NCBI GenBank assembly: GCA_021784675.1
Contig: JAJYHR010000077.1
Span: forward strand, 1 to 35,251
DNA: 35,251 bases
Reading direction: 5' to 3'
Origin: Actinomycetes bacterium
Lineage (GTDB): Bacteria > Actinomycetota > Acidimicrobiia > Acidimicrobiales > Acidimicrobiaceae
Shown one piece after another: positions 20,650 to 23,629 of the stretch (the first letter of the stretch is position 1; each line of letters starts with the position of its first letter). Below the pieces are notes generated by a model. The model was given only the letters and a program-made list of their open reading frames with translations, was not told the DNA's origin and did not search any database. The translations under genes were made by a program, and so were the position numbers.

Positions 20650-21591
20650 ATGAAGACAGTTTTGGGACACGAGGGCACGATCCTGGTCGAGGAGATCGAC
20701 CAGCCTGAGCCAGGCACAAGGGAGGTGCTGGTGAGGGTGGCCGCCTCCGGGATCAACGCAGCCGACTGGATGCAGGCGCGGGGCAACTACCCTCCTCCAT
20801 CCGGGTTTGCTCCCGATCGCCTGGGGTTGGAGTTCTCCGGCGAGGTGGTCGCCTGCGGCGAGGGGGCGAGGCTACTCGCCGCCGGGGATACCGTCATGGG
20901 AATCACCGGAGGCGAAGCACAGTCGGAGTACATCACCATCCCCGAGTCGGCGGTGGTCGCGGTCCCTGACGGGGTAGACCTGGTGGCGGCGGGGGGATTT
21001 CCGGAGGCGGCCTTCACCGCCGTCGACGCGCTCTTCAACCAGGGTGGCCTGGGGCTCGGCGACCGGGTGCTGGTCACCGGCGCCCTCGGCGGAGTCGGGA
21101 GCGCGGCGCTCCAGATCGCCGCTCTCGCCGGCGCCCGGGTGACCGCCTGGATCAGGAGTCACGACCGCGACTCCGAAGCCTTCGGGCTCGGTGCGCATGA
21201 GACCGTCGTAACCGCCGAGGTTCCCGAGGCCGGGCCATGGGACGTGGTTATCGAGCTGGTATCGCCACGCAACATCCCCACCTACCTCGGGCGGATCGCC
21301 ATCGGCGCCCGAATCGTGGTCATCGGCTTCGCCGGCGGAGGAGCCGTCGAGGTGGACGTAAGGGCGCTCGCCGCCAAGCGCGCCTCCATCGCCGCGTCGA
21401 CGTTGAGGACGCGGCCCTGGAGCGAGAAGTCACTGCTGGCGCGCAAGGTCGAGGGACGCTTGCTGGACGCGCTCGCCGCCGGTGCTTACCGGATCCCGGT
21501 CGAAGCCACCTACCCGGTAGCCGAGGCGGCCGCGGCCTACCAGCATTTCCTCCGGCCGGGCAAGCTTGGCAAGGTAGTGATCAGCTTCTAG
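20650..21591 (+). CDS. Zinc-independent MDR oxidoreductase (quinone oxidoreductase-like)
   Basis: A 313-residue medium-chain dehydrogenase/reductase. The N-terminal GroES-like part has GINAADWMQARGNYPPP and GLEFSGEVVACG, and the Rossmann part has TGALGGVG (143-150) for NAD(P)H. The structural and catalytic zinc ligands of alcohol dehydrogenases are missing, placing it with NADPH:quinone or enoyl reductase-like members. It is much shorter than crotonyl-CoA carboxylase/reductase and is not that enzyme. It is divergent from fumC and its stop overlaps the end of the convergent LysM gene by 11 nt. Confidence 0.85.
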   Translation: MKTVLGHEGTILVEEIDQPEPGTREVLVRVAASGINAADWMQARGNYPPPSGFAPDRLGLEFSGEVVACGEGARLLAAGDTVMGITGGEAQSEYITIPESAVVAVPDGVDLVAAGGFPEAAFTAVDALFNQGGLGLGDRVLVTGALGGVGSAALQIAALAGARVTAWIRSHDRDSEAFGLGAHETVVTAEVPEAGPWDVVIELVSPRNIPTYLGRIAIGARIVVIGFAGGGAVEVDVRALAAKRASIAASTLRTRPWSEKSLLARKVEGRLLDALAAGAYRIPVEATYPVAEAAAAYQHFLRPGKLGKVVISF

Positions 21592-21934
21592 GGATGCGCA
21601 GCCGCTCGCCGGGATAGATGGCAGAGGAGCGGGTCTGCAGCTCGAGCCGGTAGATCAAGGGGTAAGGGTCTCCCCCGCCGTCGAAGCGCTCGGCAATCCC
21701 GATCAACGTGTCTCCGGGCTTTACGACGTAGCTGGAGACCGCCGACGAGGCCGCCATCGGGCGGTCGGCAATACGCGTCACCACGGCTACCGCTGCGAGC
21801 AGCACCAGAGCGGCCGCGGCCACCTCCGCGGGGCGCAAGCGCCGCAATCCCCGAGGTGATTCCGATCGTGCAGCACCAGTGCCCCGCCGCGCCCTAGCCG
21901 GCGCGGCCTGCCTTCGCTCTCCAGTCAAGGTCAT
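21581..21934 (-). CDS. LexA-boxed membrane protein with LysM domain
   Basis: A 117-residue protein from ATG 21934: a basic, Arg-rich cytosolic part, one membrane segment (about residues 35-52), and a C-terminal LysM domain (from YVVKPGDTLIGIAERF to YPGERLRIP) outside the cell that should bind peptidoglycan. The reading frame is open to 21964, but the upstream ATG lies beyond the LexA box and the -10, so 21934 is preferred. This architecture plus a LexA site is that of SOS-induced division inhibitors such as YneA of Bacillus and of Rv2719c, the LysM gene divergent from lexA in mycobacteria. No lexA is nearby here. A damage-induced division or wall-remodelling role is inferred. Confidence 0.75.
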   Translation of the reverse strand: MTLTGERRQAAPARARRGTGAARSESPRGLRRLRPAEVAAAALVLLAAVAVVTRIADRPMAASSAVSSYVVKPGDTLIGIAERFDGGGDPYPLIYRLELQTRSSAIYPGERLRIPRS

Positions 21935-21937
21935 AAT

Positions 21938-21953
21938 TCGAACTTTAGTTCGA
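21938..21953. promoter_or_regulatory. LexA (SOS) box at the LysM gene
   Basis: TCGAACTTTAGTTCGA matches the actinobacterial SOS box TCGAAC-N4-GTTCGA at every fixed position. On the minus strand the centre supplies TAAAGT as a -10, followed by 7 nt and the ATG at 21934. Bound LexA would therefore cover the promoter itself. Confidence 0.8.
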
Positions 21954-22027
21954 TGGTCGGACACCCGAAGCCGCCCACTCCTCCACGTACCTCCGAGAGG
22001 CTGCAGCCACCTACCGGACGGCGGCAG

Positions 22028-23629
22028 TCAGCCGCGAAGAGCGCTCTCCAGAAAGGCGCCCATCAGCTCCAGCTCCACGAGGGCTGCCCTCGCCGAGTAC
22101 CCGTGCCCCTCGCCATCGAACTCGTGGAGGGTAAGGTTCAGCCGCCCGCCGTGGCTCGCGACGAAACGGCGGGTAGCTGCTACCGGCACCACCGGATCGG
22201 CAGTCCCGTGGGTGATGAGCACCGGGACCTTGCTGGTTATGGCCGAGAAGGCCGGCGGGGAGGGAGGGCGCAGCCACTCCAGCATGGCGTCCTCGTCGCC
22301 GAGATCGGTGAGCGGGAAGGCGAGCACCAGCCCCGCAAACAGGTCGGGCGAGAGCGCCAGCACCGAGAGCAGGGAGAAGCCGGCGGAGGAGGAGCCGATC
22401 CCGACAACGGGAAGCTCAAGCTCGTGCCGCAGGCTGCGGCCCACCCGGTCAAGAGCCTCCGCCTCGACGACGCCAAAGCTGTGCTGGAGCCGCTTGCGGA
22501 AGTACTTCCCATAGCCGTAGGAGCCCGGGTAGTCGACCAGGGCAAGCCCGATCCCGTGGGCCAGCAGGTAGGCGTACTTCGGGTTGTAGCCCAAAGAGGC
22601 CATCTCCACCGGACCCCCGTGAACGACCAGCGCCACCGCCCGGGGGGAGGAGGGAAGCAGCAGCAGGCCGGGAGTGCCGAGCCCGGAGAGCGGGTGGCGA
22701 ACCAGGTCACGCAGGCTTGCCTGGGCCTCGACGCGGTCGAGGCACCTCGAGGTGGTTCGAACCTCGATGCCGCCCTCCAGGGTGGAGGAGATGAAACCGG
22801 TCTCCTCACCGACGGCTGCGAGAGAGGAGGCCGGGCCGTTGAAGATCCTTCCCCCCTCCGAGTCCACGATGCCAGCCCTCTCAATTGTGGGAAGAACCGC
22901 CAGGTAACCCGCTCCCGCTGGAAGGTAGCTGCACCTGCCGCCGCCGAGCGGTACCTCTCCGAGATCGCTGGAGTTGGAGAGTTCTGGCGGCCTCCGCACG
23001 GGAACTCCCAGCTCTCCCGGGGTGTAGCTGCCACCGGCGTCGGAGCGGGCCCAGAGCTGCTCTCCCACAAAACGGGGCTCGACGATGGACTGCCCGGGCT
23101 GCCCGAAGGAATCGATCACGGTCCCGGAGAGGTCGAAAAGGAGAAGCCGGGCCTCCAGCCAAGGCTCCAGCCCGGTGGCGAGGCTGACCGCCACCCGGTC
23201 CTCGCCAGCCGCCACCTCGATGATCGGGGCGGTGGCAAAGCTCATATCGACTGCGATCTCCCGGTTGGACGCCCCGATGACGAGGTGGTCGGGGTAGCTG
23301 ACCGCGTAGACCTGGCCGGAAGCGGAGGCGGAGATCCCGGTCGCCCCCTCGTGCCTCGCTACCTGCCGGCTGCCCCGGCCGTCGAAGTGGAGGAGGGCGC
23401 CATCGCTCGCCAGCAGGTAGAGGCCGGTTTCGGTTACCGCTAGCGAGCCCGAATTTCCCAACCGGCGCGGGCCGACCTCTACGTTGTCGAGGCCAGGCGG
23501 GCTTGCCGGCCCGGTGTACCGAGAGCCGTGCTCGTCTGTGACCCCGACCAGGTAGAGACCGTCCCTGGTTCCCCTGAGGTCAAAGAAGGTCCGGGGAAGG
23601 ACGAAGAACTCGCCGGGTCGCAGATCCAC
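22028..23629 (-). CDS. S9-family (prolyl oligopeptidase-like) serine peptidase
   Basis: A 533-residue protein with an N-terminal beta-propeller-like region (about 1-310) and a C-terminal alpha/beta-hydrolase domain. The latter has VVHGGPVEM (oxyanion region), DYPGSYGYGKYF, the nucleophile at S415 in GIGSSSAGF, D478 in HGTADPVVP and H509 in DGEGHGYS. The Gly normally two residues before the nucleophile is Ser, giving SxSxG instead of GxSxG. No signal peptide is visible, so it is probably cytosolic, acting on short peptides or acyl-peptides. The GTG start abuts the TGA stop of the mutase gene (TGAGTG), so translation is coupled to that gene, which is an unusual partnership. Confidence 0.85.
   Translation of the reverse strand: MDLRPGEFFVLPRTFFDLRGTRDGLYLVGVTDEHGSRYTGPASPPGLDNVEVGPRRLGNSGSLAVTETGLYLLASDGALLHFDGRGSRQVARHEGATGISASASGQVYAVSYPDHLVIGASNREIAVDMSFATAPIIEVAAGEDRVAVSLATGLEPWLEARLLLFDLSGTVIDSFGQPGQSIVEPRFVGEQLWARSDAGGSYTPGELGVPVRRPPELSNSSDLGEVPLGGGRCSYLPAGAGYLAVLPTIERAGIVDSEGGRIFNGPASSLAAVGEETGFISSTLEGGIEVRTTSRCLDRVEAQASLRDLVRHPLSGLGTPGLLLLPSSPRAVALVVHGGPVEMASLGYNPKYAYLLAHGIGLALVDYPGSYGYGKYFRKRLQHSFGVVEAEALDRVGRSLRHELELPVVGIGSSSAGFSLLSVLALSPDLFAGLVLAFPLTDLGDEDAMLEWLRPPSPPAFSAITSKVPVLITHGTADPVVPVAATRRFVASHGGRLNLTLHEFDGEGHGYSARAALVELELMGAFLESALRG

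Follow-up and report, generated by a model that had tools for sequence, protein, structure and literature searches.

A LexA box at the start codon of a LysM membrane protein gene that has apparently moved away from lexA in acidophilic actinobacteria

The locus and the LysM protein

The sequence analysed (the window) comprises 35,251 nucleotides of an actinomycete of the family Acidimicrobiaceae (assembly GCA_021784675.1, contig JAJYHR010000077.1, positions 1–35,251, forward strand); the assembly that contains it (G000) has 1.95 Mb in 195 contigs and is 86% complete. The gene under study lies on the minus strand at 21581–21934, from an ATG at 21934 to a TGA at 21581, and encodes a protein of 117 amino acids that combines a single membrane helix with LysM. 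A convergent gene for a quinone oxidoreductase-like protein (QOR; 20650–21591, plus strand) overlaps its 3′ end by 11 nt, and a gene for an S9-family peptidase (22028–23629, minus strand) is found upstream on the same strand. The start codon is preceded by a LexA (SOS) box, by a probable −10 inside that box and by a TGTCCG element. A search of Rfam found nothing.

An earlier note, made from the window's letters, had placed a one-pass LysM membrane protein behind an S9 peptidase and had extended its gene to 21964, which implies a GTG start. The neighbour and the protein type were upheld, the latter by the Pfam match and the predicted single helix and LysM fold described below, and the gene was shortened to the ATG at 21934. 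The GTG at 21964 was rejected as a start because a TAG in the same frame stands shortly before the box in the congener G001; the sole in-frame start in G001 is the same ATG as in G000.

The protein matched the Pfam LysM model (PF01476; 28.3 bits, cut-off 20.9), and it was the only LysM match in a search of the assembly, whose 86% completeness leaves room for a second copy. Residues 1–30 are basic and disordered, the net charge of the N-terminal 38 residues is +7 and the best hydrophobic stretch spans residues 38–56. Structure prediction gave a disordered tail, one helix at about residues 35–56 and a beta-alpha-alpha-beta LysM fold at residues 66–115 (mean pLDDT 69, with 82–90 across most of the LysM fold). 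When solved structures were searched by fold and by sequence, the matches were mainly LysM domains, and the fold search gave no match with E < 0.001. On the strength of the N-terminal charge, the N-terminus would lie inside and the LysM domain outside the cell, a layout of a helix followed by an external LysM domain as in YneA and ChiZ; the orthologs share the membrane helix and LysM. Between G000 and G001, dN of the LysM protein was 0.34 and dS 0.84 (dN/dS 0.40), so that the protein is under purifying selection. The best NCBIfam match was to a generic LysM/Kbp-type model, with a score well under its cut-off. The YneA model (NF010723, equivalog) matched weakly, and filing of the protein as YneA was rejected because its 23.8 bits are below the cut-off of 60.

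The LexA box

Positions 21938–21953 read TCGAACTTTAGTTCGA (TCGAACTAAAGTTCGA on the minus strand), 3 nt upstream of the ATG. The assertion that this site fits the actinobacterial SOS box exactly was confirmed on both strands (TCGAACN4GTTCGA), and a pattern search of the whole 1.95-Mb assembly, a scan for further copies that the earlier note had proposed, returned it as the only exact match. By chance, 0.057 exact matches (independent bases) or 0.12 (first-order Markov) would be expected in the genome and about 0.001–0.002 in the window. A box with no or one mismatch, 2–3 nt before the ATG, was present in all nine genomes of the window genus (g1) and genus g5, that is, in G000, G001 and seven g5 genomes. 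G000 and G001 are identical at all 16 positions of the box, whereas the 60 nt further upstream are only 20–27% identical, which is chance level. A layout unlike that of g1 and g5 occurs in other families, where TTGAC directly precedes the box in several orthologs and these genes have a leader.

Boxes with one mismatch showed no enrichment in the genome (12, against 30 for a reversed control pattern), and nearly all of them lie within long open frames, the exception being a site upstream of recA. These counts would favour a chance palindrome at a gene outside damage control; such a reading is nevertheless nearly refuted by the conservation of the box in 9/9 g1/g5 genomes, and the single exact match adjoins the start of a gene orthologous to a known SOS gene, so that we consider chance extremely improbable.

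Gene order in relatives

The search covered 98 relatives; matches to the LysM gene were found in 56, and 30 loci were examined for gene order. Genera are given as codes, g1 consisting of G000 and its congener G001 and g7 of two genomes (G007 and G013). In nearly all loci from genera and families other than g1 and g5 the LysM gene is divergent from lexA and is followed by nrdR, with SOS boxes present; exceptions among the 30 are L020, with lexA but no nrdR within the stretch, and L027, which ends at a contig edge and has nrdR adjacent. The same order, lexA–LysM–nrdR, is that of mycobacteria, where the genes are lexA, Rv2719c and nrdR. Both lexA and nrdR scored above their NCBIfam equivalog cut-offs (LexA, 165.9 bits against 110.95).

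In g1 (both genomes), g5 and g7, lexA and nrdR are direct neighbours in facing orientation and the gap between them contains no LysM gene; the LysM gene adjoins a convergent QOR gene, which marks a common new site. lexA of G000 is on contig C181 and the LysM gene on C45, in line with the initial claim that lexA is not nearby; in G007, a single contig of 2,158,157 bases, the two are about 1.2 Mb apart. On a tree of LexA sequences the three genera group together as one clade (support 100/99), so that a single move explains all of them. The neighbourhood of the new site, with glpX and methylmalonyl-CoA mutase, is present without the LysM gene in g3 and g4, and its g3 version also includes an S9 gene. 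Sequence comparison thus gives good support to the view that the gene is an ortholog of the lexA-adjacent LysM gene and that it moved a single time, in a common ancestor of these three related genera of acidophiles. Since the move can be traced, distance from lexA was not used to define the protein. The suggestion of a stand-alone SOS gene of this lineage is well supported, as regards regulation and orthology, by the set of relatives, synteny and the retained box.

The S9 peptidase was considered as a partner and dropped: in g5 its gene is not next to the LysM gene and in g7 a TetR gene stands between the two, so the neighbour looks incidental and is listed as context, probably outside the function. 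In g5 and g7 the TetR-type regulator gene (L081:4977–5594, L075:4015–4641) and the LysM gene are divergent and have a common promoter region; g1 has no such regulator gene at this place.

Gene order also bears on what the protein does. A LexA-controlled general envelope or peptidoglycan-binding stress protein, such as a wall hydrolase cofactor, which does not stop division, would suit a domain that is by itself a generic peptidoglycan-binding one, the generic NCBIfam match well below cut-off and the description of ChiZ as a cell wall hydrolase with a dispensable LysM domain (PMC3989709). Against this, the orthologs occupy the lexA–LysM–nrdR position with the membrane helix and LysM layout, and the known gene of the lexA–nrdR position inhibits division (PMC3989709); we regard a general stress protein as unlikely and prefer a division inhibitor.

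Promoter elements

The centre of the LexA box provides a probable −10, TAAAGT (21942–21947, minus strand), 7 nt before the ATG, exactly as the earlier note had stated it (21947–21942). This hexamer is TAAAGT, TATAGT or TACAGT in 9/9 g1/g5 genomes, and since LexA needs no particular N4, a −10 is the best reading of the constant TANA. The transcript is probably leaderless or nearly so. A scan with the sigma-70 consensus detected no promoter and no terminator, and there is no −35 of the sigma-70 type.

The TGTCCG element (21958–21963, minus strand) stands exactly 10 nt before the −10 and resembles the PafBC/RecA-NDp motif, whose consensus in Mycobacterium tuberculosis is TGTC[GA]G-N10-TAN3T (PMC8151990). 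TGTCNG at exactly this distance was found in 10 of 11 genomes, with TGTCGT in G001; all 11, those of g7 included, have TGTC at that spacing. The window has TGTCCG-N10-TAAAGT and several g5 genomes have TGTCAG-N10-TATAGT or TGTCAG-N10-TACAGT; the g1 elements are near, not equal to, the mycobacterial consensus. A fused PafB–PafC-like protein is encoded by G000 in one open frame (L153:503–2623, contig C126); it has two WYL domains, and its halves match, in order, the PafB-type PDB chains 9fnd_X/7p5x_AY and PafC (7p5x_AX). No NCBIfam match was obtained for it; natural PafBC fusions are known (PMC6789036). Taken together, these sequences make dual control of the LysM gene by LexA and PafBC likely, as reported for Rv2719c, whose promoter region has SOS boxes and a PafBC site (PMC8151990, PMC3989709).

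A tight PafBC-like pattern (TGTCNGAG-N8-TAN3T) was found at recA and the LysM gene in G026, at recA in G005 and at several unrelated sites, and its genome-wide specificity is only suggestive. The tight pattern also occurs upstream of a gene that on visual inspection resembles one for ribonucleotide reductase (L168:1501, G005:C46:9466), a plausible damage-response target.

In the two g7 genomes (L075:3464–3979, G007; L079:156–497, G013) TGTCCG is kept, TAGG is at the right place and the start follows just after the −10 position; no box with up to two mismatches was found upstream of the relocated LysM gene in either. Judged by these sequences, g7 has lost the LexA box, so that control by LexA is not needed in every genome; the g7 gene may be under PafBC-like control alone.

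lexA, recA and the regulon in this genome

G000 encodes a LexA repressor and has boxes at recA and lexA. The box upstream of recA has one mismatch (TCGATCAAATGTTCGA; L083:1886, G000:C182:5385–5400); here and in L084–L092 a LexA-like box is followed by TTGTC-N12-TAGTCT, and recA of several g5 genomes has TTGTCAGAG-N8-TAGTCT. Going by these elements, recA is probably also under dual LexA and PafBC control in this genome. The box of lexA is weak, with two mismatches (CCGTACGGGCGTTCGA, L012:3516–3531), and ends at a possible ATG. Of the three boxes, that of the LysM gene is the strongest, as would suit a gene expressed late and under tight control.

The conserved spacing raises an alternative for the LysM promoter, in which control is mainly by a PafBC-like activator on a promoter core TGTC-N12-TA and the LexA box is a secondary overlay that only g1 and g5 have kept. 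It would account for the constancy of the TGTC spacing in 11/11 genomes, including g7 without a LexA box, and it agrees with the same type of element at recA of the same genomes, with the fused PafBC-like protein and with the finding that PafBC drives the rv2719c operon and does not act on lexA in M. tuberculosis (PMC8151990). However, within g1 the LexA box is better kept than the TGTC element (16/16 against 4/6 positions), and the g1 elements TGTCCG and TGTCGT depart from the mycobacterial consensus. We accordingly give little credence to LexA as a mere overlay and keep to LexA repression assisted by PafBC.

Proposed function and known counterparts

The explanation that we favour, and hold to be quite likely as a whole, is that the gene is a relocated ortholog of the SOS LysM protein of the Rv2719c/ChiZ position, repressed by LexA, assisted by PafBC and blocking division. 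From the sequences we infer LexA and PafBC binding and induction by damage; division arrest is suggested by architecture, orthology and known counterparts. In undamaged cells, LexA on the 16-bp box would cover the −10 and the start region and the gene would be off; on DNA damage, RecA-driven cleavage of LexA would open the promoter, and a PafBC-like activator at TGTC, 10 nt upstream of the −10, would probably add induction independent of RecA. The membrane helix would most likely bring the protein to the septal peptidoglycan synthase (FtsW and partners; FtsW/RodA-family proteins are encoded in the genome), and the LysM domain outside the cell would block septal wall synthesis, so that division would be delayed until repair.

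A more tentative proposal, to which we give slightly less than even chances, is that the compact dual promoter arose after the gene had left lexA: a PafBC-type element, a LexA operator, a −10 and a leaderless start would be contained within about 30 bp, both damage branches would meet at one division brake, and g7 would later have lost the LexA half and kept PafBC alone.

The closest counterpart by gene order and layout is Rv2719c (ChiZ) of M. tuberculosis, a LysM membrane protein that is induced by DNA damage and impedes division (PMC8151990, PMC3989709); in contrast to it, the window gene is on another contig than lexA, and its promoter, apparently leaderless, has a single LexA box that covers the −10. 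YneA of Bacillus subtilis is likewise a LexA-controlled division inhibitor with one membrane helix and an external LysM domain, the helix placing the protein at the septum via FtsW and LysM blocking septal wall synthesis; the same binding to FtsW is predicted for ChiZ (PMC13396833). The window protein differs from YneA in its extra basic N-terminal tail and in scoring below the NCBIfam cut-off, and its gene lies away from lexA. DivS of Corynebacterium glutamicum (cg2113), also from an actinobacterium and likened here by description, is an SOS-induced division suppressor encoded near lexA (PMC3989709), whereas the window gene is detached from lexA.

The genes of SulA (Escherichia coli) and SidA (Caulobacter) stand apart from lexA, and SulA acts on FtsZ. 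Both are also SOS division inhibitors (PMC3989709, PMC13396833), but they are unrelated proteins without LysM, unlike the window protein. Streptomyces has been reported to be without clear homologs of these division inhibitors (PMC9380542).

The protein itself is of a kind already known; new here are that its relocation could be traced, that the operator was retained and that control is probably double. LysM division inhibitors of the lexA-linked kind would extend to Acidimicrobiia-type acidophiles, and the gene gains a testable function and a name. Relocation with a retained operator makes a selected operator separable from mere linkage: the gene can apparently leave lexA and keep SOS control, with selection holding the operator at the start codon, not the linkage. 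The nested LexA/PafBC-like promoter, together with a sister genus in which only the LexA box has gone, would constitute a natural experiment on damage responses that share a division checkpoint. Among public records, the LysM family occurs in Ferrimicrobium sp. and in metagenome-assembled genomes named ‘Actinomycetes bacterium’.
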